Shown here in pieces: positions 43,023 through 47,936 of a DNA stretch of 64,000 nt (positions within the stretch are counted from its first letter, which is position 1; the number at the start of each line of letters is the position of its first letter). The translations under genes and the position numbers were made by a program. The notes beneath the pieces are model-generated. The model was given only the letters and a program-made list of their open reading frames with translations. It was not told the DNA's origin and ran no database searches. The DNA comes from Winogradskyella endarachnes. GTDB lineage: Bacteria > Bacteroidota > Bacteroidia > Flavobacteriales > Flavobacteriaceae. The DNA is taken from assembly GCF_009741275.1 (NCBI RefSeq), contig NZ_WOWS01000001.1, positions 558,001-622,000 on the forward strand. The letters run 5' to 3'.

Positions 43023-44654
43023 TTAAGCGACTACGCTTAGTTTTTTATTCATCTTTGTTGCATTTGAATTCGTTTCAAACTGATTAGATGTATTATTTAC
43101 ACCACCTGCTTTTAGTGCTTTCTCACCTGCAAAAAATGTTTTGTGGTCATCACCTAAATCAGAACCAGCCATTCTTTGGTGTTTTACACAAGATACATTT
43201 TTTCTAATCTCTTGTCTTTGCACACCTTTTACATACGCTAACATACCTTGGTCTCCAAAATAACCTTCGGTTAAATCATTCATATGCAATGCTGTTGTAT
43301 GATATGTTGGTAATGTAATTAAGTGATGAAAAATACCAGCTTCTCTTGCGCCATCCATTTGGAAGGTTTTTATTTTCTCATCTGCTCTATGGCATAATTC
43401 TGAATGATCATACTGCGCATCCATTAAATTATTTCTATCATAAGCTGTCATGTTTTCACCTTCAGCCAACATTTCATCAAATACTTGATTACGGAAATTC
43501 AACGTCCAGTTAAATGATGGTGAATTATTGTAAACCAATTTAGCATTTGGCACCACTGCTCTAATTCTATTTACCATATGCGCAATTTGCTTCACGTTTG
43601 GCGTTGGTGTTTCAATCCACAATAAGTCAGCTCCATTTTGCAAACTAGTAACACAATCTAAAACTACTCTATCAATATTAGAACCGTCTTTAAATTTATA
43701 TAAACCGTTTGCTAACCTAATAGGACGTACCAATTTACCATTACGCTTTAATAATACTTCATCTTGTTTGACATCTTCAATAGCCACTTCTTCCGCATCC
43801 ACAAAAGCTAAATACTGAGAGGCTAAATCTCCTGGTTCTTGACTTACGGGTAATTTTTGAGTTAAACCAGCACCTTCAGAATCTGTTCTTGCCACAATAA
43901 TTCCGTCTTCTACTCCTAACTCTAAAAAAGCATAGCGTACAGCATTCAATTTTGCTATAAAATCTTCATGAGGAACGGTAACCTTTCCATCTTGATGTCC
44001 ACATTGTTTAGCATCAGACACCTGATTTTCAATTTGAATAGCACAAGCACCAGCCTGAATCATTTTTTTAGCCAATAAATAGGTTGCTTCTTCATTACCA
44101 AATCCAGCATCAATATCAGCAATGATTGGAACAATATGCGTTTCAAAATTATCTATTTCATGTTGTACATCTTCGCCATTTTCTAATCTTCGGAACAAAT
44201 CATTTAGCTCAATCGCATCTGCCTGACGTAAAAAATCATAAATTTCTTCAATTAAACCTGCAACAGCAGTTTTCTCGTGCATTGACTGATCTGGTAATGG
44301 TCCAAATTCTGAACGTAATGCAGCTACCATCCAACCAGAAACATACAAATAACGTTTGCTCGTTGTTTTGTGGTGTTTTTTAACAGCAATCATTTTTTGC
44401 TGCGCCACAAAACCATGCCAGCAACCTAAAGATTGTGTGTAATTTGATGAATCTGCATCATAAGCTGCCATATCTTCTCTCATAATTGCTGCTGTATATT
44501 TTGCAATATCTAAACCAGTTCTAAATTGGTTTTGAGCTACCATTCTGGCAGCACTCTCAGGTTTAATGGCATTCCATGTTTGTCCGTACTTAGCTTTAAG
44601 ATTTCTTACGGTTTCTAATGCAGAACGATAGTTACTTTGTCCTAAATTTTTCAT
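43023..44654 (-). CDS. aceA: isocitrate lyase
   Basis: Glyoxylate shunt: isocitrate to succinate and glyoxylate. 543 aa, the long form known from Pseudomonas rather than the 434-aa E. coli form. Active-site Cys C218 lies in AKQCGHQDGKV; Mg binding is expected from IADIDAGFGN. The C-terminal third contains the family AYDRNNLM-QYDHSELCH stretch. It follows aceB on the minus strand with an 84-nt gap and ends at a shared terminator. Together with aceB it allows growth on acetate, fatty acids or ethanol. Confidence 0.97.
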   Translation of the reverse strand: MKNLGQSNYRSALETVRNLKAKYGQTWNAIKPESAARMVAQNQFRTGLDIAKYTAAIMREDMAAYDADSSNYTQSLGCWHGFVAQQKMIAVKKHHKTTSKRYLYVSGWMVAALRSEFGPLPDQSMHEKTAVAGLIEEIYDFLRQADAIELNDLFRRLENGEDVQHEIDNFETHIVPIIADIDAGFGNEEATYLLAKKMIQAGACAIQIENQVSDAKQCGHQDGKVTVPHEDFIAKLNAVRYAFLELGVEDGIIVARTDSEGAGLTQKLPVSQEPGDLASQYLAFVDAEEVAIEDVKQDEVLLKRNGKLVRPIRLANGLYKFKDGSNIDRVVLDCVTSLQNGADLLWIETPTPNVKQIAHMVNRIRAVVPNAKLVYNNSPSFNWTLNFRNQVFDEMLAEGENMTAYDRNNLMDAQYDHSELCHRADEKIKTFQMDGAREAGIFHHLITLPTYHTTALHMNDLTEGYFGDQGMLAYVKGVQRQEIRKNVSCVKHQRMAGSDLGDDHKTFFAGEKALKAGGVNNTSNQFETNSNATKMNKKLSVVA

Positions 44655-44737: not shown

Positions 44738-46336
44738 TTATATTAATTGATACGCTGAAAGGGTTAAAAACTCTTCAAATTCAGTTTGTGTTACTAACCT
44801 TTTGAATAATGAGATAGCTTCAGAAAATTTGGTGTTCTTTATTTTCCCCTCACCTACTTCTCTTATTATTTTCTCGACTTCATCATCAAATAATGCATCA
44901 AATAAGGCTTTATTAAAAACTCTTCCATCTTCTAAAATCACTTCGTTTTTTAACCATTGCCAAACTTGTGTTCTCGAAATTTCTGCTGTAGCTGCATCTT
45001 CCATTAAGTTATAAAGTGCTACTGCTCCATAACCTCTTAACCAAGCTTCGAGATATAGAATACCAACATTGATATTTTTTCTAACGCCAGCTTCTGTAAT
45101 AGTTCCTTGAGGAATTTCTACTAAATCTGCTTCAGTGACCACAACATCTTCGCGCTTCTTAAAAATTTGATTTGGTGTTGGCATATATTTATCAAATTCT
45201 TTCATAGCAACTTCAACTAACGCAGGATGCGCCACCCAAGTACCATCGTGTCCGTTTTTGGCTTCGCGCTCTTTATCTACTCTTACTTTTTCTAGCGCAG
45301 CATTATTTGCTTTAGGATTGTTTTTAATAGGAATTTGTGCTGCCATTCCTCCCATGGCATGAATACCTCTTTTATGACAACGCTGAATTACCAAATTAGA
45401 ATAAGCTGCCATAAACGGTGATGCCATAGTCACTTGGTCTCTGTTTGGCACTACAAAGTCTTTATGATTTCTAAACTTTTTGATGTATGAAAAAATGTAA
45501 TCCCAACGCCCACAGTTTAGACCTACAATATGGTCTTTAAGTTCATAGATATATTCGTCTAATTGAAAACTTGCTGTAATAGTTTCTATTAATAAGGTCG
45601 CTTTAAAAGTTCCATATGGAATTTGCAAATAGTTTTGAGCAAATTCAAACACCTCGTTCCACCAACGCGCTTCTAAATAGTGTTCTAATTTTGGTAGATA
45701 AAAATAAGGTGCAGAATTGTTTTCCATTAAGGCAACCGTATTGTGGAATACGTATAGTCCAAAATCGAACAAGCTACCAGACATTTCTTCGCCATTTACC
45801 AAAATATGACGCTCATTTAAATGTAATCCTCTTGGTCTTACAATTAATACAGCAGTTTGGTCATTTAGTTTGTAGTGCTTGCCTCTAGCTTCGTCTAACA
45901 ACTCAATAGTTTTTAAATTGGCATCAATTAAGTTTTGTTGCCCTTCTAAAGTATTTTTCCAACTTGGCGCATTACTATCTTCAAAATCTGCCATGAATGT
46001 TTTGGCTCCTGAATTGAGTGCATTAATCACCATTTTACGGTCTACAGGACCAGTAATTTCCACACGACGGTCTTTTAAATCATCTGGAATAGCAGCTGCT
46101 GTCCAATCAGATTCTCTAAGAGATTTTGTTTCTGAAGGAAAAGACGGAAAACCACCTTTATCGAAAATAAGTTGCTGTTGTTCTCTTCGTTCTAATAAAG
46201 ATAAACGCGAAGCATTAAATTTTTCTTGCAATACTGTAAGAAACTCTATAGCGTCTTCAGTTAAAAGTTCTGGATAGAAATTAGTCACCTCTGGTGCAAA
46301 TTTCAATTTTTGTTGTGTTGTTACTGAGATTTCCAT
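44738..46336 (-). CDS. aceB: malate synthase A
   Basis: Condenses glyoxylate with acetyl-CoA to malate. 532 aa, like E. coli AceB (533). Conserved stretches: ADFEDSNAPSWKN, RPRGLHLNERH (active-site region), GLNCGRWDYIFSYIKKF and the C-terminal RTQVWQWLKN. First gene of an aceB-aceA transcript on the minus strand. The promoter (TTGT...TAACATTG) abuts an operator-like palindrome shared with the divergent RamB/ScfR-like regulator gene. Confidence 0.97.
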   Translation of the reverse strand: MEISVTTQQKLKFAPEVTNFYPELLTEDAIEFLTVLQEKFNASRLSLLERREQQQLIFDKGGFPSFPSETKSLRESDWTAAAIPDDLKDRRVEITGPVDRKMVINALNSGAKTFMADFEDSNAPSWKNTLEGQQNLIDANLKTIELLDEARGKHYKLNDQTAVLIVRPRGLHLNERHILVNGEEMSGSLFDFGLYVFHNTVALMENNSAPYFYLPKLEHYLEARWWNEVFEFAQNYLQIPYGTFKATLLIETITASFQLDEYIYELKDHIVGLNCGRWDYIFSYIKKFRNHKDFVVPNRDQVTMASPFMAAYSNLVIQRCHKRGIHAMGGMAAQIPIKNNPKANNAALEKVRVDKEREAKNGHDGTWVAHPALVEVAMKEFDKYMPTPNQIFKKREDVVVTEADLVEIPQGTITEAGVRKNINVGILYLEAWLRGYGAVALYNLMEDAATAEISRTQVWQWLKNEVILEDGRVFNKALFDALFDDEVEKIIREVGEGKIKNTKFSEAISLFKRLVTQTEFEEFLTLSAYQLI

Positions 46337-46358
46337 GCTGTAGTTTTATTTGATGAAG

Positions 46359-46390
46359 CAATGTTACAACCAATTTTTCAAAAAAACAAG
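46359..46390 (-). promoter_or_regulatory. aceB promoter
   Basis: On the minus strand TTG at 46387-46389, 20-nt spacer, TAACATTG at 46359-46366 (one mismatch from TAnnTTTG). The -33 element touches the GCGAACGTTCGC palindrome. Confidence 0.6.
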
Positions 46391-46435
46391 CGAACGTTCG
46401 CTAAATATATATTTTCGCTATTTATATAAGTTCGC
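46390..46435. promoter_or_regulatory. TTCGC-repeat operator of the aceBA / regulator intergenic region
   Basis: GCGAACGTTCGC (46390-46401) is a perfect palindrome; TTCGC repeats in the same orientation at 46397, 46414 and 46431, exactly 17 bp apart, each followed by A/T (TTCGCTAAAT, TTCGCTATTT, TTCGCAAATA). The core resembles the RamB motif TTTGCAAA known from Corynebacterium. Confidence 0.65.
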
Positions 46436-46444
46436 AAATAGTGT

Positions 46445-46452
46445 TATATTTG
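46445..46452 (+). promoter_or_regulatory. -7 box of the regulator gene
   Basis: TATATTTG ends only 5 nt before the ATG at 46458, so the transcript would start at or very near the start codon (leaderless). Confidence 0.45.
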
Positions 46453-46457
46453 TTATT

Positions 46458-47936
46458 ATGGAACAAGATTATATTAAACTGATATTTGGATTAAAACTGA
46501 AGCAAATACGCACAGACAAAGGGCTTTCGCTTTTTGGTTTATCTAAATTGTCTGGACTTTCAAAATCGTATTTAAACGAAATTGAAAAAGGAAAAAAATA
46601 TCCTAAACCAGATAAAATTGCTGCACTTTCTGAACATTTAGATGTTCCTTACGATGAAATTGTGTCTTTAAAGCTAGATAAAAACTTAGCTCCAATTGGT
46701 GAGATATTACAATCTAAGTTACTTAAAGAAATTCCTTTAGAGTTATTTGGAATTCAAGAAAGCACTATGATTGATATTATCTCTAATGCACCAGCAAAAG
46801 TAACAGCGTTTATTAGTACAATTATTGAAATTGCAAAAAACTACAACTTTAGTAAAGAGAGTTTTTATTTGGCTTCTGTACGCTCTTACCAAGAAGCCAA
46901 CAATAATTACTTTGATGATTTAGAACAAGCGGTTTTAAAATTTGCAAAAACCTACCACGTTGACTTAAATCAACCTTTAAAATCTATTGAACTTGAAGAA
47001 ATTTTAATTGAAGAATTCGGTTACACTATAAACTCTACGGAACTTACTTCTCATACAGAATTAGCTAATTTACGTTCTGTATATGTCCCTAAAACAAAAA
47101 CACTTTTATTAGCTAGACATATAGATGATGCCCAAAAAACATTTATCTATGCTAAAGAAATTGCTTATAATTATTTAGAAATTAGCGACCGTCTTTATAC
47201 ATTTTCTTGGATTAAATTCGAAAATTTTGATCAAGTACTAAATAATTTTCATGCTTCTTATTTTGCAGGTGCATTAATTATACCTAGAGCCAGTTTAGTT
47301 GAAGACTTGAAAGATTTATTTTCAAAAAAATCATTTAAACCTAAAGATTTTGAGCGCATTATTAGAAATTACAATGCTTCACCAGAGTCTATTTATCAAC
47401 GATTAACTAATGTTTTAACTAAAGATTTTAATCTTAAAAGCTTATTCTTTTTAAGATTTTCTCATCAAAAGGACTCAAATCATTTCAAATTAAACAAAGA
47501 ATTACATTTATCAAAGCAACAGTCGCCGCATGCCAATGAAACCAATCAACATTATTGTAGACGTTGGGTTTCTCTTAAAGTATTGGAAGAAATTAGTAAA
47601 AGTAACAAACCACATGAATTTGACATACAAATCTCTAATTACCCAAATGAAGATAAAAGCTATTTAATCTTTTCTTCTGCAACGGCAGACCCTTTTGTTG
47701 CTAACAGTTATAGAAGTGTAAATATTGGTTTACAAATTAATAATCAACTTAAACGAAAAATTGCGTTTACCGAGAGTGAATCAATTTCTAAAGCTGACGT
47801 TGGAGTTACTTGCGAACGTTGTGCAATTAGTAATTGTAATGTTAGACAAGCCCAACCAACTAGCATCTTATCTGCACAAAAGGATGCAAAAATTGCTGAT
47901 ATTGTTAACGAGATTCAAGAAAAATTTAGCAAATAA
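46458..47936 (+). CDS. XRE-family acetate/short-chain-acid regulator (RamB/ScfR-like)
   Basis: 492 aa. The N-terminal HTH (residues 12-66: LKQIRTDKGLSLFGLSKLSG, KSYLNEIEKGKKYPKPDKI) is followed by a degenerate ImmA/IrrE-like domain (the HEXXH region reads YAKEIAYNY, so no protease activity) and a C-terminal Cys-containing domain TCERCAISNCNVRQAQP of the DUF2083 type. RamB and ScfR regulate acetate, propionate and glyoxylate-shunt genes in actinobacteria. Start at 46458: a longer reading exists from 46350, but it would cross the shared promoter/operator. Divergent from aceBA, so auto- and cross-regulation is likely. Confidence 0.88.
   Translation: MEQDYIKLIFGLKLKQIRTDKGLSLFGLSKLSGLSKSYLNEIEKGKKYPKPDKIAALSEHLDVPYDEIVSLKLDKNLAPIGEILQSKLLKEIPLELFGIQESTMIDIISNAPAKVTAFISTIIEIAKNYNFSKESFYLASVRSYQEANNNYFDDLEQAVLKFAKTYHVDLNQPLKSIELEEILIEEFGYTINSTELTSHTELANLRSVYVPKTKTLLLARHIDDAQKTFIYAKEIAYNYLEISDRLYTFSWIKFENFDQVLNNFHASYFAGALIIPRASLVEDLKDLFSKKSFKPKDFERIIRNYNASPESIYQRLTNVLTKDFNLKSLFFLRFSHQKDSNHFKLNKELHLSKQQSPHANETNQHYCRRWVSLKVLEEISKSNKPHEFDIQISNYPNEDKSYLIFSSATADPFVANSYRSVNIGLQINNQLKRKIAFTESESISKADVGVTCERCAISNCNVRQAQPTSILSAQKDAKIADIVNEIQEKFSK

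Follow-up and report, generated by a model that had tools for sequence, protein, structure and literature searches.

The 121-bp gap that separates the divergent aceBA genes from a PrpR/RamB-like regulator (46337-46457 of the window, i.e. the whole 64-kb stretch of DNA analyzed here) contains a perfect 14-bp palindrome, AGCGAACGTTCGCT, followed towards the regulator by two spaced copies of its TTCGC half-site. The core of this predicted operator is conserved together with the regulator in class Bacteroidia and outside it. We consider it fairly likely that the gap is a two-way switch, through which the adjacent ScfR-type regulator would activate aceBA and repress its own gene. The palindrome represents a concrete candidate cis-element for glyoxylate-shunt control in Bacteroidota. 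The features of the locus are as follows.

43023-44654, minus strand: aceA, isocitrate lyase (NF005074, 990.1 bits, cut-off 446)
44738-46336, minus strand: aceB, malate synthase A (TIGR01344, 777.2 bits, cut-off 594.5)
46359-46366, minus strand: predicted aceB -7 box TAACATTG (TAnnTTTG except that the fifth base is not T; register kept in 72 of 75 gaps)
46387-46389, minus strand: aceB -33-like TTG, sharing the outer base of the palindrome (TTG in 67 of 75 gaps)
46389-46402, no strand: predicted core operator, the 14-bp perfect palindrome, with arms GCGAA (46390-46394) and TTCGC (46397-46401, copy 1) (sequence read, conservation of the 12-bp core, co-occurrence of the 14-mer)
46414-46418, plus strand: half-site TTCGC, copy 2, at +17 (sequence; exact at +17/+18 in 52 of 75 close gaps)
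46431-46435, plus strand: half-site TTCGC, copy 3, at +34 (sequence; 65 of 75 gaps have it exact, at +34 to +37)
46445-46452, plus strand: predicted regulator -7 box TATATTTG (all 75 gaps have T as the fifth base)
46458-47936, plus strand: HTH regulator with a PrpR-like sensor half, PrpR/RamB-like, 492 aa (domain, profile and fold searches)

The palindrome and half-sites in the window

Reading of the sequence bore out the arrangement described in the first-pass annotation: direct TTCGC copies begin at 46397, 46414 and 46431, in two steps of 17 bp, with an inverted GCGAA at 46390-46394. The palindrome does touch the aceB -33 element, its outer base being shared with the TTG, and the array lies upstream of the regulator -7 box as proposed, ending 9 bp before it. 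Predicted start sites fall at about 46354 for aceB and about 46457 for the regulator, the latter giving a leader of a single base.

TTCGC is short, and this is all that speaks for a chance repeat in an AT-rich gap. Among 20,000 dinucleotide shuffles of the gap, at least three TTCGC were present in 8 and GCGAANNTTCGC in 6, whereas no shuffle held an evenly spaced triple or the exact 12-bp core. Together with the class- and phylum-wide conservation reported below, these counts rule out chance or composition as the origin of the array, and we give that explanation a negligible probability.

The only exact copy of AGCGAACGTTCGCT in the 3.6-Mb assembly is the one at 46389-46402, and a further evenly spaced TTCGC triple (period 5-30) was found on neither strand of the window. 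Nothing else in the window, acs included, comes within two mismatches of the 12-bp core. A wider regulon in this genome is not supported: near-matches to the core number 21, against 32 in the reversed control, and are thus not in excess. The genome holds one place with two mismatches to the core (C1:220077), and its sole other GCGAANNTTCGC lies within a reading frame that appears MerR-like by eye.

Conservation of the operator with the regulator

We retrieved 80 relatives by their regulator protein, of which 78 have an unaltered 12-bp core. A tblastn match to aceB lies divergently upstream of the regulator in 77; two relatives (L035 and L052) have none and one (L020) is too near a contig end. 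The motif is likewise present in all 45 aceB/regulator gaps compared at the class level, and this conservation in relatives that keep the gene pair supports the earlier proposal that the array is the operator of the adjacent regulator.

The exact 14-mer occurs in 42 of 299 genomes of the host family (Flavobacteriaceae), once in each, and its reversed control in 0. Matches to the regulator were found in 45 of the 299 genomes and matches to aceB in 43, and both sets include all 42 genomes with the 14-mer. By coordinates, every one of the 42 palindromes is located between aceB and the regulator, which was confirmed in 30 out of 30 that were fetched.

Three of the 45 regulator genomes lack the exact 14-mer. 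In one of these (G013; L170, 1836-2948), the 3' end of aceA directly adjoins the C-terminal half of the regulator, and aceB, the promoters, the HTH and the site are absent, as if by deletion. The other two, both Xanthomarina (G038 and G261, which are L052 and L035, respectively), have no aceB match and keep a full-length regulator. Each carries ACGAACGTTCGC, a near-full palindrome with a one-letter core variant, at the place of copy 3 in the regulator promoter, 34 bp before the regulator start codon. A third Xanthomarina (L025) has aceB and a normal site. In G289, aceB is present downstream of other genes, with no regulator match and no site. The exceptions G289, G038 and G261 therefore indicate that the site follows the regulator, not aceB.

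The malate synthase of G289 (C42:16572-18125, L169) is 57% identical and is flanked by TolB-like and lactate permease-like genes (by eye); it was probably acquired separately.

These distributions bear on the idea that another transcription factor recognizes the array and that the neighboring regulator is a bystander. The operator letters do differ from the characterized family boxes compared, as given in the accessible parts of the source papers. We nevertheless regard a bystander as very improbable: the 14-mer and the regulator co-occur genome by genome (42/42), and of the three regulator genomes without the exact 14-mer, one is a deletion remnant and two have no aceB but carry a core that differs in one letter. 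Loss of aceB leaves the site in place beside the regulator, and the aceB that has no regulator has no site.

At the class level, the regulator profile matched 61 of 395 Bacteroidia genomes and 60 upstream stretches were fetched, of which 15 were left out for having no aceB match in 2.2 kb (some contigs end earlier, and L212 has only 17 bp upstream). A relaxed palindrome, GCGAAnnTTCGC, with the GCGAANNTTCGC core, is found in 45 of the 45 remaining gaps, which represent 16 families; 40 copies are exact and 5 have a single mismatch. The outer bases of the palindrome are A in 45/45 and T in 41/45, and its center is TT (14), AT (13), AA (7), CG (6) or TA (5). Six of the 15 regulators with no aceB match in 2.2 kb have a site, and the other nine, L212 with its 17 bp included, have no GCGAANNTTCGC at one or fewer mismatches within 700 bp.

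Several loci differ in their arrangement. Some class members with no adjacent aceB have the regulator beside acetyl-CoA synthetase-like (L194, L228, L230) or aconitase-like (L216) genes, by eye, and the divergent acs cases L228 and L230 have no GCGAANNTTCGC site. G647 holds a second copy (L225), a regulator paralog with AGCGAACGTTCGCT about 70 bp before it, in the gap to a divergent pckA-like gene (PEP carboxykinase, by eye). In L121, an exact GCGAANNTTCGC precedes aceB and a one-mismatch form precedes the regulator; both an exact and a one-mismatch form are also present in L122, an unannotated record.

At the phylum level, the regulator was found in 70 of 395 genomes. The 40 places analyzed comprise 4 from the same order and 36 from the 38 genomes outside the class, fragment matches in G877 and G988 being left out. 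The site is exact in 4/4 of the former, which belong to a second family of the order, and within 600 bp upstream of 33/36 regulators outside the class, where 21 of the 36 stretches have no aceB match within 2.2 kb. In our judgement, a core that is exact in several classes represents unusually deep conservation for a bacterial operator.

Half-site spacing, promoter registers and the proposed switch

We compared half-site spacing in 75 close gaps, the window included; 6 of 81 were left out, L035 and L052 for their missing aceB and L076-L079 for their longer gap. Exact TTCGC copies are located at offsets 0, +17 (46 gaps), +18 (6), +34 (35), +35 (14), +36 (15) and +37 (1), and nowhere else in the 60-bp scan. 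The exact 17-bp period noted in the first-pass annotation is thus true of the window and does not extend to the relatives, whose offsets are 17/18 and 34-37. A spacing that floats in this way does not support an exact 17-bp helical register as the key to the array, and rigid helical phasing was rejected as the constrained feature.

With L076-L079 restored, an in-register half-site is present in 66 of 79 close gaps and absent from 13, L076-L079 among them. In the 40 class gaps outside the host family, 36 have half-sites oriented like the nearer palindrome arm at 16-18 or 33-36 bp, either on the regulator side (+17 in 13, +34 in 9, +35 in 6) or on the aceB side (17 in 13, 18 in 4, 36 in 1). By locus, they are found to the right only in 19 gaps, to the left only in 13, on both sides in 4 and on neither in 4. 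Binding of several protomers to the array, as suggested earlier, remains plausible in view of these oriented half-sites. In five further members of the host family, the core is exact in 3 and has one mismatch in 2, and in-register half-sites are absent in 3 of the 5.

The half-sites might be leftovers of common descent, the palindrome alone being functional; their spacing varies and some lineages lack them. We find this unlikely, since 13 of the 15 families outside the host family again show the offsets 17/18 and 34-36, while in the 40 gaps matching half-sites placed elsewhere total 6 and wrongly oriented ones 5, and the letters between half-sites drift among relatives. Sequence comparison points to the palindrome as the main element of the predicted operator and to the direct repeats at +17/18 and +34-37 as real but secondary parts of it.

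In other classes, half-sites occur to the right at 17 bp (8) and to the left at 17-19 bp (10), but the half-site background is much higher there, wrongly oriented copies within 80 bp numbering 17, and the signal is weak: an in-register half-site is lacking beside 19 of 33 exact palindromes. Three loci of the second family of the same order (L231-L233) lack the direct half-sites and have a near-palindrome, GCGAATAATCGC, in their stead, 35 bp downstream of the core site. One family of another class has, in three loci (L262, L263 and L269), everted half-sites, TTCGCTT...AAGCGAA, on the regulator side, downstream of the core palindrome.

The promoters are held at fixed distances from the outer sites. 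In 72 of 75 close gaps, the start of the palindrome and that of a TAnnNTTG box on the aceB strand are exactly 35 bp apart. Copy 3 is followed at a distance of exactly 14 bp by a TAnnTTTG box on the strand of the regulator in 70 of 75 (64 exact, 6 with one mismatch). Between them, the distance from the palindrome to copy 3 varies from 34 to 37 bp, by 1-3 bp gained or lost. Two fixed registers with a floating middle indicate that each outer site belongs to its own promoter. The fifth base of the aceB -7 box is A in 69, C in 4 and G in 2 of the 75 gaps, never the consensus T, which the regulator -7 box has in 75/75. No conserved -33 element was seen for the regulator promoter in the 75 close gaps.

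In Flavobacterium psychrophilum, the -7 box spans -12 to -5, according to the accessible part of that report (PMC9723704). If the boxes here are placed likewise, the palindrome is centered at -41.5 for aceB and copy 3 extends from -26 to -22 for the regulator. The former is the position of a class II activator, and box placement gives this geometry, relative to start sites that are predicted only, in 72 of 75 host-family gaps. In the 40 class gaps outside the host family, an exact TAnnTTTG lies on the aceB strand 30-35 bp from the palindrome start in 32 (in 11 of them at 35 bp) and, in one more gap, at 53. The predicted -41.5 register is thus a feature of the host family, outside which the aceB promoter stays close but is not fixed.

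The regulator itself has an N-terminal HTH_3 domain (PF01381, 42.5 bits, cut-off 23). A C-terminal ScfRs domain (PF09856, 22.3 bits, E 1.3e-4) scores just under the curated cut-off of 24, as does a middle Peptidase_M78 (IrrE-like) domain (21.7 bits, cut-off 22), and the structural model aligns with IrrE and PprI at Z 13.2-14.0. The AlphaFold2 model has a mean pLDDT of 78.7, and residues 73-130, nearly all below 50, likely form a flexible linker. Its closest fold is MtPrpR (6cyy; Z 25.7 over 303 residues, rmsd 3.9; Foldseek E 1.2e-13). PrpR was found by fold alone: a sequence-profile search of the PDB gave 14 matches, all to the HTH part, with PrpR absent. A protein search of PLSDB returned two Persicobacter records and nothing more. 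The earlier label of RamB-like is therefore right at the level of fold, but the protein is not a RamB equivalog, its 57 bits falling far below the cut-off of the NCBIfam model NF038139 (700). All 26 of the 26 sequences compared share cysteines C367, C452, C455 and C460, with the C-X2-C-X4-C spacing and one upstream cysteine of PrpR, C367 being paired with PrpR Cys363 by order and not by residue-level alignment. We read the protein as an ScfR-type regulator that probably carries a [4Fe-4S] cluster and senses CoA compounds.

We infer that a regulator dimer would bind AGCGAACGTTCGCT, centered at -41.5 of the aceB promoter, and activate aceBA from the class II position. Further protomers of the same, probably tetrameric, protein would reach the +17 and +34 half-sites through flexible linkers, and filling of the +34 half-site, just upstream of the regulator -7 box, would repress the regulator gene. 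The choice among occupancy states may be governed by a short-chain acyl-CoA in a pocket that the putative [4Fe-4S] cluster holds together. Tolerance of 17/18 and 34-37 spacings would follow from a flexible linker, which is our main reason for not leaning on helical phasing.

The regulator could instead mainly repress both divergent promoters and be released by acetyl-CoA-type ligands. The palindrome overlaps the aceB -33-like TTG in 67 of 75 gaps and is often nearer than -41.5 outside the host family, where the aceB side holds a half-site at 17/18 bp in 17 of 40 gaps, immediately before the aceB -7 box. Moreover, Mycobacterium RamB represses icl1, as stated in the accessible text of PMC6765138. 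We consider such double repression improbable, although less so than the leftover origin of the half-sites, because the center at -41.5 in the host family and the off-consensus aceB -7 box (75/75) fit activation better than repression, and because RamB of Paracoccus, which shares the gene layout and is the best precedent for function, is an activator.

The switch with activation of aceBA and autorepression therefore remains our preferred reading for the host family. Outside it, the half-sites on the aceB side (left only in 13 of 40 gaps) mean that copy 3 as an autorepression site is not universal. A phylum-wide operator code is conceivable, if rather doubtful, in which a dimer nucleates on the near-invariant AGCGAAnnTTCGCT at the -33 edge and activates the shunt, while linker-tethered heads of the same oligomer take half-sites in 17-bp steps on either side, those on the regulator side serving autorepression, as in the host family, and those on the aceB side repression of the pathway, as in other families. 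If this is true, relocation of a half-site from one side to the other would rewire activator into repressor logic with protein and core unchanged. The half-site shift between promoters offers a natural experiment on how one oligomeric sensor activates or represses.

Marine flavobacteria with proteorhodopsin raise their glyoxylate-shunt enzymes in the light. The predicted operator would make the regulator behind this response directly testable, a Dokdonia relative (L074) also carrying the palindrome.

Comparison with known systems

No described glyoxylate-shunt regulator of Bacteroidota was among the matches listed from an open-license library, judged by titles and the starts of abstracts. Among the matches listed, none was on the topic by title for the operator letters, those for RamB with Bacteroidetes were unrelated by title, and those for proteorhodopsin concerned other bacteria by title; malate synthase with Bacteroidetes regulon gave no match.

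Some of the closest HTH structures to the regulator are the restriction-modification C proteins C.BclI, C.AhdI and C.Esp1396I (Z 13.9, 13.3 and 11.1, respectively). In C proteins, a strong site activates and a weaker neighbor represses their own gene. They consist of an HTH only, with no sensor domain, and their target genes are unrelated.

The layout resembles that of Paracoccus denitrificans RamB, a class 2 ScfR, likewise a regulator divergent from malate synthase and isocitrate lyase (PMC10370305). According to the accessible text of that study, RamB occupies the gap between the divergent ramB and malate synthase genes and acts there as an activator, also activates isocitrate lyase, and is a tetramer that is shifted to dimers by CoA and CoA esters (PMC10370305). 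Its operator has two near-identical 14-bp boxes with a TGACAA core, 18 bp between them, both required for activation; their distance of 32 bp from center to center is comparable to that of the palindrome and the +34 half-site here. The gap described here has one full palindrome with half-sites at 17/18 and 34-37, and other letters. The Paracoccus boxes TGACAAACCTTACA and TGACAATACTGACT, which we derived from the wild-type and mutant oligonucleotides, differ from the consensus AGCGAAnnTTCGCT, and the portion of the paper available describes no 17-bp half-site array (PMC10370305).

M. tuberculosis MtPrpR, which shares the fold (Z 25.7) and the C-X2-C-X4-C motif with an upstream cysteine, is a tetramer, and its site between prpR and prpD likewise occupies a gap between regulator and metabolic gene (PMC6765138, accessible text). 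MtPrpR controls the methylcitrate cycle, and its sites, TTTGCAAA and TTTGCgAA, are one base apart (PMC6765138). RamB of Corynebacterium glutamicum is also a regulator of acetate metabolism, and the NCBIfam RamB model matches the regulator here over most of its length, if weakly, but its site, AA/GAACTTTGCAAA, differs (PMC4448153, accessible text). In the sources as accessible, the actinobacterial RamB/PrpR core, TTTGCAAA or TTTGC(A/G)AA, does not match the TTCGC core found here.

In summary, the layout and the protein family are known, and the operator letters differ from those of the three characterized family operators compared, as given in the accessible parts of those papers. What is new is that another phylum has a distinct and very deeply conserved predicted operator, whose array of half-sites switches sides.
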